Below are positions 4,653 to 40,662 of a stretch of DNA of 64,000 nucleotides, in pieces. Source of the DNA: Archangium gephyra. GTDB taxonomy: Bacteria; Myxococcota; Myxococcia; Myxococcales; Myxococcaceae. Position 1 is the stretch's first letter; every line of letters begins with the position of its first letter. The translations under genes and the position numbers were made by a program. The DNA lies in assembly GCF_001027285.1 (NCBI RefSeq), contig NZ_CP011509.1:8084501-8148500 (forward strand). Reading direction: 5' to 3'. The notes beneath the pieces are model-generated. The model was not told the origin of the DNA. It saw only the letters and a list, made by a program, of their open reading frames with translations, and did not search any database.

Positions 4653-7490
4653 TTGCCATCGCCGGAAGCACCCGAGAACGCACCGTTCCATCAGTTCCCG
4701 GAAGGCGGGGAGATGGGTGCGCTCATGCGCGCCGTGGATTGGAGCAAGACGGCGGTAGGCCCGGTGGAGGGCTGGCCGAGTCCCCTCAAGACCACCGTGC
4801 GCACCCTGCTCGAGTGCCGCCTGCCCATGTATCTCGCCTGGGGCCGCGAGTTCACGCAGTTCTACAACGATGCCTACCGGCCGATCCTGGGAAGCACGAA
4901 ACATCCCCAGGCCATGGGCGGGCGCGCGCCGGAAACCTGGCCGGAGCTCTGGGCCACCATTGGCCCCATGTGGGACGAAGTCTGGAGGGGCCGCTCCTTC
5001 GGGTCCGACAACTTCCGGCTCACCCTCGAGCGAAACGGCTACCCCGAGGATTGCTACTTCAATTTCTCCTATAGCCCCGTGAGGGATGAAGCCGGCGCCG
5101 TGGCGGGTGTGCTCGTGACGTTCGCCGAGACCACCGCCCAGGTGATGAGCGAGCGCCGCCTGATGGAGGAGCGCGACAAGCTCAACAACATCCTGCAGAA
5201 CCTCAACGACGGGATCTTCACCGTCGACACCGGCGCCAACATCGTGGACATGAACGCAGTGGCCTTGCGCATGCACGGCTACTCCTCGTTGGAAGAGGCG
5301 CAGCGGGCGGCCCCGAGCCGCGAAGCCCATTTCGAAGTGCGCACGGCCGAGGGGAAGGTTCTTCCGCTGCCCGAGTGGCCGGTGATGCGGGTGCTGCGCG
5401 GCGAACGCTTCTCCGACGTGGAGCTCCGGGTCCGGTTGCGGAAACAAGACAGCTCCTGGATCGGTTCCTATAGCGGCACGCCGATCCACGATGCTCAGGG
5501 CAACGTCCGCCTCGGTGTGATTTCCTTACGCGACGTGACGGAGCGCCGTCAGCTGCTGGAGAACGAAAAATCCGCTCGTCGCGCGGTGGAGAAGAGCGAG
5601 GCCAAGTTCCGCTCGATCTTCAATCTCGCCGCCGTCGGCATCGCGAGAAGCGATCCCCAGAGCGGCCTCTTCCTCGAGGTGAATCGCCGGTTCGAGGAGC
5701 TCACCGGCTACTCCGCCGAAGAGCTCTCGCGATTGACCTTCAGCGACATCACCCACCCCGAGGACCGGCAGCGGGACCGGGAAGGCTTTCGTGCTTTCGC
5801 GCAAGGGAGCCTCCCCAGCTTCCGCACGCAGAAACGCTACGTGCGCAAGGATGGCCGCGTGGTCTGGGTCAACCTCGAGGCCGTGGCCGGCGCCCACGGT
5901 CCGGACGGCCGGATGCTCGAGACGATCGGGATCATCCAGGACATCACCGAGGAGAAGCAGGCCCTCCTGGCCGTGGAAGAACGGGAGCGCCGCTTCCGGG
6001 TGCTCGCCAATTCGATGCCCCAGATCGTGTGGATGGCTCGCCCCGACGGAACCTTCGATTACTTCAACGAGCGCTGGTTCGAGTACACGGGAGTGTCCGA
6101 GACAGCGCCCATGGGCCCGGTGCCCTGCGAGGGCGTGGTCCATCCGGACGATTCCACCAGGGGGCGGGAAGCCTGGCTGCTGTCGATCCGCACGGGAGAG
6201 CCCCTCTACACGGAGTCGCGCCTGCGGCGAGGGGACGATGGGACGTACCGCTGGTTTCTCACCCGGGCCATTCCGGTTCGCGGCGACGATGGCGCGGTCG
6301 TGCGCTGGTTCGGAACCTCGACCGATATCGACCAGCAGAAACGCGCCGAGGAGCTCCTCGCCCACTCCGGGGAGCTCTTCCGCCGCGTGACCGAAACGAT
6401 TCCCCAGGCCGTGTGGCGCACGAACCTGGACGGCTCGGCCGACTACTTCAGCCAGCGCTTCTACGAAATCGTGGGTTATGGCCCGAAGGATTTCCTCGGC
6501 TGGGGCTGGTCGGAGCTGATCCATCCCGACGACAGGCACCACGTGCTCGAGGAGTGGCGGCGCTGCCGCGATGCGCTCATCCCCGTTTCCTACGAGTTCC
6601 GCGTGCTTGGCTCCGATGGCAGGTACCGCTGGTTCCTGGCCCAGGGAAACCCCCACCGCAACGAGCGCGGCGAGGTGGACAAATACTACGGCACCTGGAC
6701 GCGGATCGATGAACAGAAGCACGCCCAGGCCGAGCTGCTCGAGCTCACGCAGGAGCTCCAGGCCTCCGTGCGCGCCCGCGATGAGTTTCTCTCCCTCGCG
6801 AGCCACGAGCTGAAGACTCCGCTCACCACCCTCAAGCTGCAGGCACAGGTGCTCCAGCGCGGGGTGGAGAAGAACGACGCCCGTCTTGGCAGGGAGCGGC
6901 TCGGCCAGCTGGCGGAGCAGTCGAAACGGCAGATCGCGCGGCTCGAACGGCTGATCGACGACATGCTCGATATTTCGCGCATCCGCACGGGCCGCCTCAC
7001 CCTGCGGCTCGAGAAGGCGGATTTCGTCGAGCTCGTGCGCGAGGTGCTCGAACGGATGCAGCACCAGTTCGACGCCGCGCGCTTGCCCGCGCCGGAGCTC
7101 TCGGCGAGCGCCGCCATCGCCGGTGTCTTCGACCGGCTCCGCATGGAGCAGGTGATGACGAACCTGCTCACGAATGCGATTCGCTACGGCGGCGGGCAGC
7201 CCATCGCCGTGCGCGTGGCCGAAGCGGGAGAACGGGTGCGCCTCGAGGTGAGCGACAGGGGCGTGGGCATTGCCCCGGAAGACCACGAGCGCATTTTCGA
7301 GCGCTTCGAGCGCGTGATGCGCCCTTCGGAGGTCAGCGGCCTCGGGCTCGGGCTCTTCATCACCCGGCAGATCGTGCGGGCACACGGGGGCGACGTGCGC
7401 GTGGAGAGCCAGCTCGGACATGGCTCCACCTTCATCGTGGAGCTACCGCGAACCGCCGTGACCGGGGGCGAGGGCGTGCACGTGGTTTGA
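4653..7490 (+). CDS. Multi-PAS sensor histidine kinase (cytoplasmic)
   Basis: This 945-residue sensor kinase has no membrane segment. About five PAS/PAC modules occupy roughly residues 20-155, 165-300, 315-440, 445-570 and 575-700. A HisKA helix follows with the phospho-acceptor His718 (LASHELKTPLTTL), then an HATPase_c domain with the N-box (NLLTNAIRYGG, ~834-845), G1 box DRGVGIAP (~868) and G2 box GLGLGLF (~896). It has no receiver domain, and no response regulator lies next door, so its partner is encoded elsewhere. The start is a TTG at 4653, chosen because AAAGGA lies six bases upstream and no ATG precedes the first PAS domain in frame. The ligand of the PAS domains cannot be told from sequence. 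Confidence 0.9.
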   Translation: MPSPEAPENAPFHQFPEGGEMGALMRAVDWSKTAVGPVEGWPSPLKTTVRTLLECRLPMYLAWGREFTQFYNDAYRPILGSTKHPQAMGGRAPETWPELWATIGPMWDEVWRGRSFGSDNFRLTLERNGYPEDCYFNFSYSPVRDEAGAVAGVLVTFAETTAQVMSERRLMEERDKLNNILQNLNDGIFTVDTGANIVDMNAVALRMHGYSSLEEAQRAAPSREAHFEVRTAEGKVLPLPEWPVMRVLRGERFSDVELRVRLRKQDSSWIGSYSGTPIHDAQGNVRLGVISLRDVTERRQLLENEKSARRAVEKSEAKFRSIFNLAAVGIARSDPQSGLFLEVNRRFEELTGYSAEELSRLTFSDITHPEDRQRDREGFRAFAQGSLPSFRTQKRYVRKDGRVVWVNLEAVAGAHGPDGRMLETIGIIQDITEEKQALLAVEERERRFRVLANSMPQIVWMARPDGTFDYFNERWFEYTGVSETAPMGPVPCEGVVHPDDSTRGREAWLLSIRTGEPLYTESRLRRGDDGTYRWFLTRAIPVRGDDGAVVRWFGTSTDIDQQKRAEELLAHSGELFRRVTETIPQAVWRTNLDGSADYFSQRFYEIVGYGPKDFLGWGWSELIHPDDRHHVLEEWRRCRDALIPVSYEFRVLGSDGRYRWFLAQGNPHRNERGEVDKYYGTWTRIDEQKHAQAELLELTQELQASVRARDEFLSLASHELKTPLTTLKLQAQVLQRGVEKNDARLGRERLGQLAEQSKRQIARLERLIDDMLDISRIRTGRLTLRLEKADFVELVREVLERMQHQFDAARLPAPELSASAAIAGVFDRLRMEQVMTNLLTNAIRYGGGQPIAVRVAEAGERVRLEVSDRGVGIAPEDHERIFERFERVMRPSEVSGLGLGLFITRQIVRAHGGDVRVESQLGHGSTFIVELPRTAVTGGEGVHVV

Positions 7491-27415: not shown

Positions 27416-29254
27416 TCAGTAGACGTCGCGCAGGTAGCGCTGCTGCTCGCGCAGCGAATCAAGGTAGGCCTTCGCGTCCTCACGGCTCTTGCTCCCGTGG
27501 GTCGCGATGATGTCGACGAGGGCTTCCTCCACGTCCGGAGCCATGCGCTTCGCATCGCCGCAGACGTAGAAGGAGGCACCGCCCTCCAGCCACGCGTAGA
27601 CGTCGCTCCCCTTCTCGCGCAGGCGGTTCTGGACGTAGACCTTCTGGCCCTGGTCCCGGGAGAAGGCGAGATCGATCCGGTGCAGCGCTCCCTGCTTCAC
27701 CGCCTCCTGCCACTCCACCTGGTAGAGGAACTGGCTGCGGAAGTGCTGCTCGCCGAAGAAGAGCCAGTTGCGGCCGCTCGCGCCCGTCTCGGCGCGCTCC
27801 TGCACGAAGGCGCGGAACGGCGCCACGCCCGTGCCGGGGCCCACCATGATGATGTCGCGGCTCGTGTCCTTCGGAAGCCGGAACCGCTCGTTGGCCTCGA
27901 TGAAGACCTCCACTGTGTCCTGGCCCGCCTCGCGCGTCGCCAGGTAGTTCGAGGCCGCTCCCACGTGGCGCGTACCGAAGGCCTCGTACTCCACCAGGCC
28001 CAGAGTGAGGTGGACCTCCTCCCCTACCCGCTTCTGGCTGGAGGCGATCGAGTAGAGCCGCGGCGTCAGGCGGCGCAGCGCGCCCACCAGCTCCTCCGCG
28101 CTCCACTTGCCGGGATGCTGGCGGAGCAGATCAATCACCTGGTGGCTGGCGAGCAGCGCGCGCAAGGCCTCACCACCCTCCGGCGTGAGCAGGCGCCGCA
28201 GCTCCGCGTCGTTGGAGCGCTCGGCATGGCTCGCCAGGAACGGACGGCTCAGGCGGGTGATCTCCAGCTCCTCCGTGAGCCAGCGCTTCAAGGGCAGGCC
28301 GCGCCCTTCGCGCTTCACCTCGGTGGCCCCATCGAGCCGCAGCTCGGAGAGCACCGCCTCGACCAGCTCCGGCGGATTCCGGGGCACCACGCCGAGCGCA
28401 TCGCCCGGCTCGTACGTCAGGCCCGAGCCCTCCAGCGAGAGCTCCAGGTGGCGGACGTCCTTGAGCGCCCCACGCCCGGTGATGCGCTGGTTGGCCAGCA
28501 CCTGGGACGGATAGGGATTCTCCTTGCTGAAGGTGGGCGGCACCTGCACGGTGCGCAGCGGCGTGACGGTCGCCAGCGAGGCCTCGGGCGCCAGCTCCTT
28601 CTTCGCGTGCTCCAGGGCCTGACCCAGCCAGGGCTCGGCCACGGGCTCGAAGTCCACGTCGCACTCGGCGCGCGCGAACAGCCGCGTGCCGCCGAGCTCC
28701 GCGAAGCGCTCGTCCAGGACGCGGCCGATCTCGCAGAACTTGGGGTAGCTCGTATCGCCCAGCCCCAGCACCGCGAACCGCAGCTGCCCGAGCGCCGGAG
28801 CGCGCTTGCTCCGGATGAAGTCGAAGAAGCCCCGCGCGTCGTCCGGCGGATCTCCGTCGCCCTGGGTGCTGATCACCACGTACAGAAGCCGCTCGTTCTT
28901 CAGCTCGCGCACGGGGTAGTCGCTGGCACGGAAGCTCCGCACGGCCAGCCCGGCGGCCTCGGCCCGCTGCTTCAGGCGGTCGGCCAGCTGCCGGCTGTTC
29001 CCCGTCTGGGTGCCATAGACGATGGTCAGCGTCCCCTGGGGCGCGGCCTGCACCGCCGCCGCGGGCGGGGCCACCGGGAGCGCGCCCGGGAGCGCGCCCG
29101 GGAGCTGCCGGGCCGCGAGCCCAGCGAAGTAGCCGCTCAGCCACGTGAGCGACGGCGCATCGAGCCCCTCGAGCAGCCGCTGCAGCTGCGCGCTCTTCTC
29201 CGCACCGAGGGGTGTGGCCAGGGCGGGGATGGAGGCATTCACGGAAGAGGTCAC
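27416..29254 (-). CDS. cysJ: NADPH sulfite reductase flavoprotein alpha subunit
   Basis: This 612-residue diflavin reductase has an FMN flavodoxin domain at ~75-215 (VYGTQTGNSRQLADRL, STQGDGDPPD), an FAD domain at ~240-450 (PRLYSIASS) and an NADPH domain at ~460-612 (VGPGTGVAPFRAFVQE, FFGEQHFRSQFLY, with the C-terminal RYLRDVY). It passes electrons from NADPH to CysI. It starts at a GTG whose bases overlap the natural cysN stop in the four-base GTGA, evidence for translational coupling and for the frame-corrected end of cysN. An Ala/Pro linker, PGALPGALPVAPPAAAV, before the flavodoxin domain is unusually repetitive. Confidence 0.95.
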   Translation of the reverse strand: MTSSVNASIPALATPLGAEKSAQLQRLLEGLDAPSLTWLSGYFAGLAARQLPGALPGALPVAPPAAAVQAAPQGTLTIVYGTQTGNSRQLADRLKQRAEAAGLAVRSFRASDYPVRELKNERLLYVVISTQGDGDPPDDARGFFDFIRSKRAPALGQLRFAVLGLGDTSYPKFCEIGRVLDERFAELGGTRLFARAECDVDFEPVAEPWLGQALEHAKKELAPEASLATVTPLRTVQVPPTFSKENPYPSQVLANQRITGRGALKDVRHLELSLEGSGLTYEPGDALGVVPRNPPELVEAVLSELRLDGATEVKREGRGLPLKRWLTEELEITRLSRPFLASHAERSNDAELRRLLTPEGGEALRALLASHQVIDLLRQHPGKWSAEELVGALRRLTPRLYSIASSQKRVGEEVHLTLGLVEYEAFGTRHVGAASNYLATREAGQDTVEVFIEANERFRLPKDTSRDIIMVGPGTGVAPFRAFVQERAETGASGRNWLFFGEQHFRSQFLYQVEWQEAVKQGALHRIDLAFSRDQGQKVYVQNRLREKGSDVYAWLEGGASFYVCGDAKRMAPDVEEALVDIIATHGSKSREDAKAYLDSLREQQRYLRDVY

Positions 29255-30908
29255 GGCCGGTTCTCCTGGGCATCCAGGATCTGCTTCACCTGGCGCTCCA
29301 GCTCGTGGGTGGGATCCAGCTCCAGCCAGGGGACACCGGCGCCGCGGAGTTGATCCCGCAGCCCCAGCCGCGCCTGCGGAACGGGGTGTAGAGGATGGCG
29401 AGCAGCCCGGCCTCGGCCAGCGCGAGCGCGTTCTCCGCGTCGCCCCGGACGGTGACCACGTGCCGGCCCTGGTCGAACAGGGCCCGCTCCAGCCGGGGCG
29501 CCAGCGTCTGCACCTCGGGAGTGCCCGTCAGGAGGATGACCGCGCCCGACTGCCCCAGGCGCGCGCGCCGCTCCTCGGCGGAGATGAGCGAGCGCGCTTC
29601 CTGATCGCCCGCCTCTCCCGCCGCGCCGAGGATCATGCCCGCCGCGACCGTGTCGTTGGTGAGCGGATCCACGACGATGAAGGCGCCCGTCTTCCGGTTC
29701 TCCGTGTACGGGTCGCAGATGAGCGGCCGCTTGCAGACGAGCCGGACCTTGCCGATGTCGTTGAGCGACAGGGACTCGGCGGGCACTTCGGAGAGGGCCT
29801 CCAGGTCCTTGCGCCAGAGCACCTGCTCGACGTGGGCCGGCACGTACTTGGAGGTGTGCTTCACGAGGTAGCGGCGCGAGGTGTCCAGGCGCTCCTCGCC
29901 GAACCACACCAGCATGGCCTCCAGGTACTGGAGCGCCACCGGCGGCTTCTCGGCATGCGCGATGAGGTCTCCCCGGCTGACATCCACCTCGTCGGCCAGA
30001 CGCAGCGTCACCGAGGACGGCGCGCTGGCCTCCCCGAGGCTCCCATCGAAGGTGTCGATGGCGGCGATGTGCGTGCGCCGCTTCGAGGGGAAGACGACGA
30101 CCTCGTCACCCACGCGCACCGTGCCGGAGGCGATCTGCCCGGCGAACCCGCGGTAGTCCAGGTTGGGCCGCAGCACGTACTGCACGGGGAAGCGGAAGGG
30201 CGCACCGTCCAGCCGGCGCTGGTGTGGCAGCGACTCCAGCCACCCGAGCAGCGTCTCTCCGTCATGCCAGGGCGTGCGGCCGCTCGGCTGGGTGATGTTG
30301 TCACCGCCGCGCGCGCTGATGGGGAAGTAGCGCACCTGCTCGAAGCCGAGCGTGGAGGCGAACGCGTCGAACTCCTTCGTCAGCCGCGCGTAGACGGCCG
30401 GGTCGAAGTCCATCAGATCCATCTTGTTGATGGAGACGGCCAGGTACGGAATGCCCAGCAGCGAGGCGATGTACGCATGCCGCCGCGTCTGCGGGAGGAT
30501 GCCCAGGCGCGCGTCCACCAGGATGACGGCCGCGTCGGCCGTGGAGGCCCCGGTGGCCATGTTGCGCGTGTACTGGATGTGTCCCGGCGTGTCGGCGACG
30601 ATCACCTTGCGCCGGCGCGTGGAGAAGTAGCGGTACGCCACGTCGATGGTGATGCCCTGCTCGCGCTCGGCGCGCAGACCGTCCGTGAAGAGCGAGAAGT
30701 CGATCTCCTCGCCCGCGCTGGCGCGCTTCACCGCCGCCACCTGGTCCTCGAACAGCCCGTTGCACTCGTACAGAAGCCGGCCGATCAGCGTGGACTTGCC
30801 GTCGTCCACCGAGCCCACCACCACCAGGCGCAGCAGCTCCTTCTCGTAGTGCTCGGCGAGGAAGCGCTGGAGGTCACCCTTGTCATTCAGCTGCAGTGCG
30901 GCGGTCAT
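29251..30908 (-). CDS. cysN: Sulfate adenylyltransferase subunit 1 (GTPase) with degenerate APS-kinase-like C-terminus; frameshift near 3' end
   Basis: The EF-Tu-like GTPase drives APS formation with CysD. GTP-binding motifs are GSVDDGKST (32-40), DTPGH (106-110) and NKMD (161-164). After the beta-barrels, residues ~454-552 align with APS kinase (VILLTG..., LERAL, AGLLAILYTPF, GVPWLELD), but the P-loop is replaced by TGTPEVQTLA and the LDGD motif by VRGD. A missing base at about 29378 (two G on the plus strand where three are expected) shifts the last 42 residues. As read, the frame stops at 29286; corrected, it ends at 29251 with TGA in the GTGA overlap with cysJ. It begins one base inside the cysD stop (TAATG). 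Confidence 0.92.
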
Positions 30909-31825
30909 TAGAAGTACCCCTCGCGCTTCTTGAGCTCCATCGAGCCTTCTTCGTCGTGGTCGATGAGGCGGCCCTGCCGCTCGGACACGCGGGCCTCCAT
31001 CATCTCGGTGATGATCTCCTCGACGTTGGTAGCCGAGGACTCGATCGCACCACTCAGCGGGTAACAGCCCAGCGTCCGGAAACGCACGCGCTTCATCGTG
31101 GCCTTCTCGCCCGGACGCAGCCGCATCCGCTCGTCGTCCACCATGATCCACTGGCCCTTGCGGTCCACCACCGGGCGCTCGGCGGCGAAGTACAGCGGCA
31201 CCACGGGGATGCGCTCCTTGAGGATGTAGTGCCACACATCCAGCTCGGTCCAGTTGGAGAGCGGGAAGACGCGCATGCTCTCGCCCGCGTCGATGCGGCC
31301 GTTGTAGAGGTTCCACAGCTCGGGCCGCTGCTTGCGCGGCTCCCACTGGCCGTGGCGATCGCGGAAGGAGTAGACGCGCTCCTTCGCACGGGACTTCTCC
31401 TCGTCGCGCCGGGCGCCACCGAAGGCCGCGTCGAAGCCGTGCAGTGCGAGCGCCTCCAGCAGCGACTGCGTCTTCATGGCGTGCGTGTACTTCTGGCTGC
31501 CATGATCGAAGGGGTTCATGCCCTCGGCGAGCGCCTTCTTGTTCTGGTGCACCAGAAGCTTCAGCCCGAGCTTCGCCGTGAAGCTGTCGCGGAACTGGTA
31601 CATCTCCCGGAACTTCCACGTGGTGTCCACGTGCAGCAGCGGGAACGGCAGGGGCGCCGGATGGAAGGCCTTGCGCGCCAGGTGCAGCAGCACCTGCGAG
31701 TCCTTGCCAATGCTGTAGAGCATCACCGGGTTGGCGAACTCGGCCGCCGTCTCGCGGATGATGTGGATGCTCTCCGCCTCGAGCACCGCCAGATGCGAGA
31801 GCCGCGCGGACAGGGTTTCACTCAT
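30908..31825 (-). CDS. cysD: Sulfate adenylyltransferase subunit 2
   Basis: This 305-residue PP-loop (N-type) ATP pyrophosphatase makes APS from sulfate and ATP together with the CysN GTPase. The PP-loop [17 protein letters not shown] is at about residues 38-54, with downstream family blocks [28 protein letters not shown] and the C-terminal LKKREGYF. Its length is standard. The start overlaps the cobA stop by eight bases, and its stop shares a base with the cysN ATG. It acts in the cytoplasm as the first committed step of the pathway. Confidence 0.96.
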
Positions 31826-35580: not shown

Positions 35581-36386
35581 GTGCCGACCCTGACCTCCAT
35601 CACCCTCTATCCCCTCAAGTCGTGCGCGGGTCTACCGCTGACCCGCGCCACCGTGGAGCCGCTCGGACTCCAGCATGATCGCCGGTGGATGGCGATCCGC
35701 CCGGATGGCTCCTTCATGACCGGACGCGAGTTGCCCGCCCTGGTGCGCGTGCGTGCCGTGCCCGGGCCGTCGGGGCTGCTCCTGTCCGCCCCCGGCATGC
35801 CGGAGCTCGCGGTGCCCGTGCCGCCCACCGGAGCGCCCCGCCTCGACGTCACCGTCTGGGATGACACCTGTTCGGCCGCCCGCGCCCATGCGGATGCGGA
35901 CCGGTGGCTCTCCGAGTACCTCGGCCAGCCCGCGCTGCTCGTGTACGTGGACGAGCGGATGCAGCGCCCGGTGGACCCCAAGTACGCCGCTCCGGAGGAC
36001 CGTGTCGGCTTCGCCGATGGCTTCCCGCTGCTGCTCATCTCCGAGGCCTCGCTGGCGGATGTCAACCAGCGCCTGGCGCAGCCCGTGCCGATGAGCCGCT
36101 TCCGTCCCAACCTCGTGGTGGACGGCTGCGAGGCCTTCGCCGAGGACGGGTGGAAGCGGCTGCGCATCGGCACCGTGGAGCTCGCCGGGGTCAAGCCGTG
36201 CGCCCGCTGCGTCTTCACCACGGTGGACCCGGAGACGGCCCGCGCCGATCCCCAGCAGGAGCCGCTGCGCACGCTCTCCACCTACCGGCGCATGGGTCCC
36301 AAGAGCGGCGTGATGTTCGGTCAGAACGTCATCGTGCGGCGCCCGGGGAGATTCGCGTGGGCGACGCGGTGGAGATCCTGGAGTAG
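35581..36386 (+). CDS. MOSC-domain protein (molybdenum cofactor sulfurase C-terminal type), frameshift near 3' end
   Basis: This protein has an N-terminal MOSC beta-barrel (TLTSITLYPLKSCAGLPLTRATVEPLGLQHDRRWM) and a C-terminal MOSC domain with SRFRPNLVVDG and the conserved GVKPCARCVFTTVDPETA, whose Cys is a proposed sulfur carrier. MOSC proteins handle molybdenum cofactor sulfur or act like mARC reductases on N-hydroxylated compounds. One G is missing in the run 36345-36348. Restoring it gives the normal ending PGEIRVGDAVEILE with stop at 36384-36386 (268 residues). As read, the frame runs on into antisense of the kinase gene. Confidence 0.88.
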
Positions 36387-39300
36387 ACCGGAGCGAGCCG
36401 AGCAGGGCCCGGGCCTCCTGGAGCTCCGGTACCTCGAGGTCGGGCTCGAACCGGCCGCACAGGCGCTCCAGCCCACGCCGTGCCCTGTCCGGGTGTCCCG
36501 TGTCACGGAGCTGGCGAGCCAGGGCCACGCGTGCCCGCAGCTCGAAGAGCCAGGCCCGCTGCCGGTGGGCGATGACCACGGCCCGGAGCAGGCTGCGCCT
36601 GGCGTCCTCCTCCTTCCCGGCCGCCCGGAGCAGTTCTCCCTGAAGCCGGTTCATCTCGGACTTGAACAGGCGCGCCCTCGTCTCCCCCTCGAGCCCCAAC
36701 GCCTCTCTCACCTGGGCCAGCCCTTCCTCCACCCGCCCCAGCAGCAGGGACACATCCGAGAGAAGATAGAGGTAGTAGGGCATCAGGACCCTGGCGCCCA
36801 GTTTCCGCATCATCCCAATGCCAGCCCGCAGCGCTTCGAGCCCTTCCCGTGTCCGCCCGAGCCTGCACAGTGCCCACCCCTGAAGCCCCTTGGCGAAGGC
36901 CAGGAGAGGAGGGAAGACGCCCCGGGTGGCCACCGCCGCGCAGGCCTCCGCCCACTCCAGGGTGCCCTGTACCTCGCCGCGGAACTGACAGGCCGCGGAC
37001 AGGTAGACCAGCGCCGTCCCCCGGGACGCATGGGCCTGCCCACGGACCACCTCGATCAGCTCGTGACTGAAACGCTGGGACTCCCGAGGCCGGACCTGTA
37101 ACAGGTGGACGAGACAGTGAAGCACCAGATCCGCCACCCACTCGTCCACCCAGCTGTCCTCGAGGAGGGCCTGTCCCATCTCGAGCCGGGGACCCAACCG
37201 CACCGCCTGTTCACTGTACTCCCGCGCCCTGTCGAGCCCTCCTTCGTAGAAACAGAGGCTCGCCAGCAGCCGGTAGCCCTGAGACACCAGCCTCGGGTTG
37301 CGCCGCTGCTGGCCCAGCACGAGGAGCTGTCCGGCCAGCTCGTGCGCCTTCTCGAACCTCGCGCCCATGACGAGGTAGGAACCCAACCCCATACAGAGCA
37401 GATCGAGCTCCGGAAGTGCCTCTCCCCTCAGGCGGAGCAGTTCCTGCGCGCGGCCATAGGTCTGCTCCACCTCGGGTGAGCCGTAGCCCTGGGTGTTGAG
37501 CAAGATGAGACCGAGACCACTCAGCAAGCGCATCTCGTCCACGGCCCTCTGCGCGCCATCCGGGAGGCTGCGCACCAAGGTCAGCGCCTGTTTGAAGTGA
37601 GAGCTGGCCTCCAGGCTGGCGGAGCGGGCGAGGGCGAGCTTTCCGGCGAGCTCCCACTGGTGGATGGCCAGCACTTTCTCCGCTGCTTCCGTGTAGTGGT
37701 AGGCGAGCACCTCGGGCCGCGTCTCCACCACCTCCTGGAAGCCCTCCAGCAGGGCCTGGGCAACGCGCCGGTGATGCTGCCGCCGCAAGCCACGCGGGAG
37801 TGACTGATAGGCGGCCTCCTGGATGAGGGCGTGGCGGAACTGGTACTCCTCCACGCCGGGCTCATTCCCCAGGTGTTGCAGCAGCCCCGCCGAGACGAGG
37901 CCCAGGAGGTCCGCCCGTACCGTGGCCTCGTCCCGGGCCAAGAGCCGCACGAGCAGGGGCTGGAGGAAGTCGCGTCCGACCACGGCGCACAGCTGTGCCA
38001 GCGTCTTCTGCCGGGGCGGCAGCGTATCCAGCCGGGCCAGCAACAGCTCATGCAGGGTGACGGGGATGGAGGACAGGCTGCCCGTGAAGGATTGCTCGAG
38101 CACCATGCGTGTCATCTCCTCCACGAAGAGCGGGATGCCGTCCGTCTTCGCCACGAGCCGCTGGACCGTCTCCTCGGGCAGGCTCGCGCCATGAGCGGCC
38201 GCCCGCACCAGGGCCGTCGCGGACGCCGCCGACAGCCGGTCGAGCACGAGCAGGTGGAAACCCGGGGAGGGCGGCCAGGCCGGCTGGAACCCGGGGCGGG
38301 CAGTGAGGAGGAGGAGGAGCCTGGCCGTCGCGATGTCCTGGAGGAGAAGGCCGAGCAGCTCCAGCGAGGAGGGATCGGCCCAGTGCAGATCCTCGATGAC
38401 GAGCAGCACCGGCCGCTCCTCCGCCACCCGCACGAGCAGGAGCCGCAGGGCCTCGAGCACCTTCCGCTTGCGCTCCTTCTGGTGCTCCAGCGCGGCCAGC
38501 AGGGCGGAAGGCTCCGTGGCATCGGGTGAGGCGAGCAGCGCGACGATCTGCCGTCCGTGCTCCAGAGACACCCCCAGTTCTTCCAGCCGCGCCTCCACCG
38601 CGCGCGCACCGGGTGGCGAGCGCCCCTCCGCTCCGAGCAGGAAGAAGCGCCGCAGCAGCTCGAGGATCGGATGGAAGGCGCTGTTGCGGAACGGCTCCCA
38701 GCACTGGCAGAGCGGAAGGTGGCTCGACTCCGGAGACATCCGCTCGCGCAGCTCCTGGATGAGGCGGGACTTGCCAATACCGGCCTCGCCGCTGAGCAGG
38801 ACACAGGCCCCCTGCCCCCGCCGCGCCCGCTCCCAGAGGCCCATCAACCGCTCCAGCTCGTGCTCCCGCCCCACCAGCGGGGTGAGCCCCCCGGCCACGA
38901 GCGTCCGCTCGAAGCGGGAGACCGCTCTTCTCTCCCGCCCCACGCGGTACGCCTCGAAGGAGGGGGAGCCGGAGGGTTCGGTCTCGAAGGCGCCCCTCAC
39001 GAGCTTCCACGTGGTCGCGCTGAGCTCCACCCCCCCGGGCCCTGCCCTCCGTGCCAATGCGGCCGCCACCCGTGGAGCTTCACCCTGGATGGTGGGCATC
39101 CGTCCCAACCCCTCCGAGGGGAGCGCATCGAACACCACCGCATCCGTGTGGATGCCCACCTCCACCGCGAGCCCGGGGTGAGACAGCCACGGACCCTCGG
39201 AGGGGCGCTCCCGTGTCAGGTGGAGCCCCGCGCGCACCGCCCGCTCCGAGTCATCCTCCCGGGCCGTGGGGTAGCCGAAGCAGGCCAGCACCTCGTCACC

Positions 39301-40470
39301 CACGGACAGGGCGATGGCGCCGTCGTACCGCTGGAAGACGTCCGCACACCACCGCTGGAAGGCCGCCTGCAGCTCGCTGGCATCCTCGGGATCGAGCCGC
39401 TCCCGGGTGTCGGAGGAAACCACGAGCCCGCAGGACACCAGGGTGATCCGCCGGCGCTGAGGGACCTGAAGCACCGGGGTCTCGCGCCAGGGCCCGAGCG
39501 CTTCCTCCAACCGGAGCAGCCGCTCCCGCAACTCGGACGCGCTGCCCAGACGCCGCTCGGGCGCCTTGGCCAGCAGAGCGGCCACGAGCCGCTCCACCTC
39601 CTCGGGCACCTGCGGAACGCGCTCGCGCACGGAGGGTACCGGCTCGGAAGACAGGATGTTCTCGCGCAGCTCCTGGAACGAGGCGAACGGATAGGGCAGC
39701 TCGCCGGTGAGCAGCTCGTACAGCATGATGCCCGCCGCCCAGAGATCGGTCCGCGCGTCCTGCTTCTCTCCCCGCCACTGTTCCGGTGCCATGTACCCGG
39801 GCGTTCCGGCCGTGGGCAGATGGGGAACAAGCGGGGCGTTGCCCGACATGAGGTGCGCCAACCCGAAGTCGAGCAGCTTCACGCTGCCCTCGCGAGTGAC
39901 AAGCACGTTGCTCGGCTTGAGGTCGCGGTGGACGATGCCGTGCGCATGGGCATGCGCCAGACCCGCGGCCACGCCGCCCAGCAACTCCAGCGCCCGCCGC
40001 AGCCCCGGCTTCTCACGCCGCAGCAGTGAGGCCAGGGACTCGCCCTCGAGGAGCTCCATCACCAGGAAGGGAACCCAGGGCTCCCAGGGCGCACCGCTCC
40101 ACTCGGAGACGTCGAAGAGACGGACGATGTTCTCGTGATCGAGCCGGGCGATGGCCCGGGCCTCCTCCCACAGCGGCGAGCCCGGCGGTTGCCCGGCCCG
40201 CGTGCTCCGGGCCAGCAGGAACTTGAGGGCCACCTCGCGCCGCAGCTCGCAATCCCGGGCGCGGAAGACCTGTCCCATCGCGCCCCCACCCAGCTTCCCG
40301 AGAATCTCGAACCGGTGCCCTTCCCTGCCGCCCATCCGCGTCCCGGGCCGAGGAATCCGGAGCGGCGTCTCCTCCCGGGCCACTTCGATCAGGAAGGAGT
40401 CCTCGAAGTCCTCGGGCTTCGAAGGAGGCACGCTCCCTTGCTCCCCCTCCTGGCTGTTTTCCTGGTGCAT
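36329..40470 (-). CDS. Serine/threonine protein kinase fused to degenerate cyclase-like, AAA ATPase and TPR domains
   Basis: Frame-corrected length is about 1380 residues. The Hanks-type kinase is at ~54-310, with GKLGGGAMG, Lys83, HRDLKPSN (181-188) and DFG (201-203) all intact. A class III cyclase-like domain at ~340-500 keeps GDEVLACFGYP but has Gly in place of the first metal Asp (VSCGLV), so it is probably inactive. An AAA/STAND ATPase has its P-loop GEAGIGKS at 561-568 and Walker B LLVIEDLHWADP near 690; TPR-like helices run from ~960 on. The ATG at 40470 has GGGGAG upstream. Restoring a base at 36345-36348 makes it stop at 36329; otherwise it runs to 35632 as antisense of the MOSC gene. 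It is cytoplasmic signalling; the signal is unknown. Confidence 0.9.
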
Positions 40471-40662
40471 CACGCGCTCCCCGGGGGCCCTCGCCAGAGC
40501 CCTCCTCATGGGTAACCCTGGCGCGAGGGCCTGGAATCAGCGACCTCGGGGCAATGGAGTGCTCGCTCCCCCGAGAGGGCTGAAAGAATTACGCCCAATC
40601 ACCAGGCCGGAGCTGTCACCGGGCACCCGTTTCCCTCGGCTTCAAGGTGGAGCCGGAGCGCT

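Follow-up and report, generated by a model that had tools for sequence, protein, structure and literature searches.

The window analysed here is the 64,000-base stretch 8084501-8148500 of the Archangium gephyra genome (G000:C1), which lies within one contig of 12,489,432 bases (12.49 Mb). It carries two genes that face each other tail to tail. A mARC-like gene for a MOSC_N-MOSC protein is placed at 35581..36386 on the plus strand by its Pfam MOSC_N and MOSC domains and by its relatives, and a gene for a Ser/Thr kinase-AAA_16 protein is placed at 36329..40509 on the minus strand by its Pfam Pkinase and AAA_16 domains and by its orthologue in Archangium lansinium (L112:4373-8536). The window ORF list gives the first as 35581..37101 (506 aa) and the second as 35632..40509 (1625 aa, minus strand), the kinase ORF overshooting its expected stop, and both printed ORFs enter the antisense of the opposing gene. 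The kinase ORF opens at 40509; inspected by eye, the start of the A. lansinium gene suggests an inner ATG at ~40470 as the likelier start.

The plus-strand text around the site reads ...CGGCGCCCGGGGAGATTCGCG..., with a run of four G at 36345-36348. Up to this run the MOSC gene keeps the frame of its relatives, and its last 13 residues are off frame. The neighbouring plus frame (ORF 35904..36386) ends with PGEIRVGDAVEILE and the stop TAG at 36384-36386, which is the MOSC stop expected from the window sequence, the ORF list and the congeners; the restored C-terminal end would read …GEIRVGDAVEILE. On the minus strand, one frame gives ...ESP, and the adjacent frame gives ...SPGAAR followed by the expected kinase stop TGA at 36331-36329, which is antisense to the conserved MOSC codons GTC ATC.

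The Pfam scan placed the window MOSC ORF in the MOSC, mARC-like family, with MOSC_N and MOSC both above the gathering score. In the same scan this ORF falls short of the C-terminal end of the MOSC profile, covering positions 2-111 of 120 as compared with 2-120 of 120 in the A. lansinium protein. The A. lansinium protein could also be aligned with human mARC1 (PDB 6fw2; E 4.4e-45) up to residue 267 of 268. Since the A. lansinium protein matches both the end of the profile and the end of mARC1, the off-frame MOSC end is part of the domain. The orthologue resembles mARC/MOSC family proteins in both domains and almost to the end of mARC1, whereas the printed window copy differs from them in lacking the final part of the MOSC profile. 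The A. lansinium kinase orthologue scored 565.2 bits against the TOMM system kinase/cyclase fusion model (TIGR03903), below the NCBIfam cut-off of 705.75, and its sequence resembles that family without reaching its cut-off.

The nearest named relative in our searches was A. lansinium MIWBW, and PMC10435759 describes A. lansinium as most similar to Archangium gephyra DSM 2261. In a DNA alignment of the genus genomes found, the MOSC tail is one base longer than in the window in all five congeners, with five G at the site in three of them (G001, G003 and G004) and the same length in other letters in G002 and G005. A. lansinium, the nearest relative, has five G. Its MOSC protein ends with PGEIRVGDAVEILE, exactly as in the neighbouring frame of the window, and the facing kinase (L112:4373-8536) ends with ...ESPPGVAR, while a tandem kinase copy (L112:85-4206) ends with ...GSPPGAAR; both copies then have the same stop. 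Since the two minus-strand frames of the window give ...ESP and then ...SPGAAR before the stop, the end expected for the window kinase corresponds to the A. lansinium end. The flanks on both sides of the site are ~90% identical to A. lansinium, and the MOSC gene shows no further decay.

We then compared the MOSC end across a wider set of relatives. From the contig search the best 80 of 235 confirmed relatives were used; the family search matched 20 of 96 family genomes, one of which was the own genome, leaving 19 others. After removal of L119, L123 and L124 (the same places as L032, L033 and L034), 96 distinct MOSC relatives remained; L118, likewise left out, is the window itself. This sample leans towards copies that are intact at the site, because the search patterns include VMFGQNVI just upstream. 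An in-frame stop follows 12-22 codons past the query end in 94 of the 96; one of the other two (L060) has a further in-frame stretch beyond the motif, and the other (L041) is interrupted by the end of its contig. All 95 readable relatives reach their own C-terminus in frame, and among the 96 relatives and the window only the window's own MOSC copy leaves it.

These comparisons bear directly on an earlier note on this DNA, which had read the site as one missing base that breaks two convergent genes. The frame break itself was confirmed, in that the window has four G at 36345-36348 and the five congeners are all one base longer. The note had predicted that one extra base would let the MOSC gene end at 36386 and the kinase gene end with ESPPGAAR at 36329, and had suggested that both protein ends be compared with orthologues; both A. 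lansinium ends fit these predictions, the MOSC end agreeing in full and the kinase end reading ESPPGVAR, where the note's ESPPGAAR joins the two window frames. Its statement that a base is missing holds in the sense that the run is short relative to the congeners, while a comparison of this kind does not separate the record from the organism. It had further regarded the joint repair of two genes as strong evidence. A minus-strand stop, however, is reached within 6 codons of a random frame entry in 9.6% of cases in this window, and the kinase stop stands opposite conserved MOSC codons; the joint repair by itself is therefore only moderate evidence, its stop arising by chance at a rate of ~10%. 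It is the orthologues that make the case for the frames strong, and the sequence comparison with them supports the earlier interpretation.

The note had also put the overlap of the restored genes at 58 bases. This agrees with the window as printed (36329-36386); in A. lansinium, which has the extra base, the tail-to-tail overlap of kinase and MOSC measures 59 bases, each stop lying inside the other gene. The window ORFs as printed do not form a convergent overlap of this kind, nor do the genes of G002 and G005, where the kinase stop falls short of the MOSC stop by 20 bases (G002) or 21 bases (G005), leaving the two genes 20-21 bases apart. In the alignment, the stretch that separates the shared parts is longer by ~50 bases in G002 and G005 than it is in A. 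lansinium and the window; the junction falls at 36398-36399 of the window, and the extra bases include the kinase's own stop. In the simplest reading, the kinase would have lost its own end, with the stop, through a ~50-base deletion, and would now read the MOSC antisense until the TGA opposite GTC ATC. A ~50-base insertion in G002 and G005 is a possible alternative. Within the overlap, the A. lansinium main copy differs from the tandem copy by 4 substitutions, the window from the main copy by 3 and the window from the tandem copy by 1. Small as the numbers are, all of these are synonymous in MOSC and non-synonymous in the kinase, which argues that MOSC and not the kinase tail is constrained; from the sequence, the kinase tail looks passive. 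The overlap is real but ordinary. Like the convergent overlapping gene pairs of prokaryotes (PMC2174442, PMC2716372), the two genes share 3' ends and have their stops inside the partner gene, and nothing unusual was found in the pair by comparison.

What is specific to A. lansinium is that part of the overlap was copied with the kinase. Of its two kinase genes in tandem (L112:85-4206, followed by L112:4373-8536), the first carries the last MOSC stretch, with a match from window position ~36322, without a MOSC gene. As the kinase gene ends inside MOSC, a copy of it brings such a MOSC relic along. Another MOSC-tail piece, of 95 bases and 87% alike, lies near 1.9657 Mb of A. lansinium (L113 ~6686-6780). 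A separate kinase-like piece is found nearby, and the two are probably a decayed kinase copy.

A break of the same kind lies 7 kb from the site. In cysN, a minus-strand gene of the sulfate-assimilation cluster, a run of five G is shortened to four at window positions 29383-29386, and the 3' end of the gene becomes a false tail: the shifted ORF stops at 29286, and the expected stop is at 29251. Both A. lansinium and G004 have five G there and keep the gene open. A difference at window position ~30909 was considered as a further break and rejected, as it falls at the junction of the cysD stop and the cysN start. These overlap by one base in the window (TAATG, ~30906-30910) and are adjacent in A. 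lansinium (TAAATG), so that nothing is broken there. Beyond the window, one further clean coding break was seen over 800 kb of the own genome, at ~8610333, where a C run is one base short (by eye, with no third genome for comparison). The 993 aa A. lansinium gene concerned is split in the own genome at this place and again ~515 bases further.

Nine flagged places in the own genome were examined by eye. Two were clean one-base losses in G or C runs (cysN and 8610333). The gene at 8610333 also holds a third, a complex indel in G-rich sequence; a fourth was a base lacking in A. lansinium, and the other five have the look of starts or ends of genes or of stretches with multiple indels. A tenth place displayed with these nine was the G-run site of the MOSC/kinase break. 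Differences were also seen in both directions elsewhere: at own-genome position 8137034 a base is absent from A. lansinium; at A. lansinium positions 5466502 and 5157905 a base is lacking and the gene is split, the own genome being open, and at 5466502 G004 sides with the own genome; two other runs, at 8215809 and 8022188, are shorter in the own genome than in A. lansinium.

The run is one base shorter in the window than in its relatives, and in these relatives both genes keep their frames and reach their own ends. How the shortfall arose is a separate matter. We consider it likely that it is a consensus (assembly) error in the G run and not a mutation of the organism. An ordinary convergent pair, with a 59-base tail-to-tail overlap in the organism's lineage, would then have been recorded one base short in the G run inside the overlap; as the base falls within the overlap, both ORFs would read through into each other's antisense. 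The site has the mark of a homopolymer error, namely a one-base length difference in a run that is unique to the own record among the relatives. It also resembles homopolymer indel errors of long-read bacterial assemblies in that a base is lost in a G run and a gene is fragmented while the relatives are intact, and in that a second identical case, cysN, lies nearby. It differs from them in that no general excess was found when A. lansinium was taken for comparison. Isolated one-base gaps over 198 kb were short in the own genome in 19 cases and in A. lansinium in 17, and over 800 kb the genes split in two frames were 10 of 285 in one direction and 9 of 296 in the other (own genome versus A. lansinium), so that neither the gap counts nor the split-gene counts revealed an excess of indel breaks in the own assembly. 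A periodicity scan gave two breaks in the own genome, of which one is only the cysD/cysN junction, and four in A. lansinium; a GC-frame scan gave two in A. lansinium and none in the own genome, missing both the G-run site and cysN. The A. lansinium genome is itself a PacBio assembly, according to PMC10435759, and is therefore not an error-free yardstick. The sequencing method behind the A. gephyra record was not found in the literature searched.

G runs are also prone to real slippage mutations, and the four-G run could be a recent one-base slippage deletion in the strain or laboratory line, a reading to which we give a minor but appreciable chance. Such a deletion would replace the last 13 MOSC residues and give both proteins a long antisense tail, an outcome that we regard as possible but unlikely to the same degree. 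It would accord with the similar indel counts of the own and A. lansinium assemblies, and neither the MOSC gene nor the kinase gene is known to be essential. However, the deletion is seen in none of the 95 readable relatives, the flanks are well conserved (~90% identity to A. lansinium) with no further decay of MOSC, and cysN, at a distance of 7 kb, has a break of this kind as well.

A real shift might instead be tolerated if ribosomes slipped by -1 on the heptamer C CCG GGG and so restored the MOSC frame. By eye, the zero-frame codons CGC CCG GGG AGA fit the pattern X XXY YYZ, and the slip would lead into GAG ATT CGC ... TAG, so that normal MOSC would be made along with a form bearing a long antisense-derived tail. 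The relatives, however, have no shift that needs correction, and the kinase frame on the other strand has no such heptamer (by eye), so that one gene would still be broken. Slippage as a means of tolerating the shift is therefore extremely improbable, and the production of two MOSC forms from a real four-G run is just as hard to credit. Programmed -1 frameshifting was rejected, as the shift site is not kept and the relatives read straight through. It is also very unlikely, if marginally less so, that the window frame is correct and the long read-through ORFs are true proteins. Both ORFs do stay open for more than 240 further codons, and in DNA as GC-rich as this, long ORFs often arise by chance. 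Against this, the extensions occur in no relative: 94 of 96 stop early, and of the other two one meets its contig end and one has an in-frame extension of another kind. The extensions are also the antisense of the adjoining gene. Long read-through proteins were rejected on the ground that the relatives lack the extensions. With an assembly error as the preferred reading, the frame break has most likely no biological basis.

For curation, this means that the record as printed gives two gene products long, false C-terminal tails, and that cysN, 7 kb away, looks similarly broken. For biology, the locus illustrates, on a small and ordinary scale, how one of two facing genes can borrow its neighbour's antisense as a new C-terminus and keep the piece on duplication.
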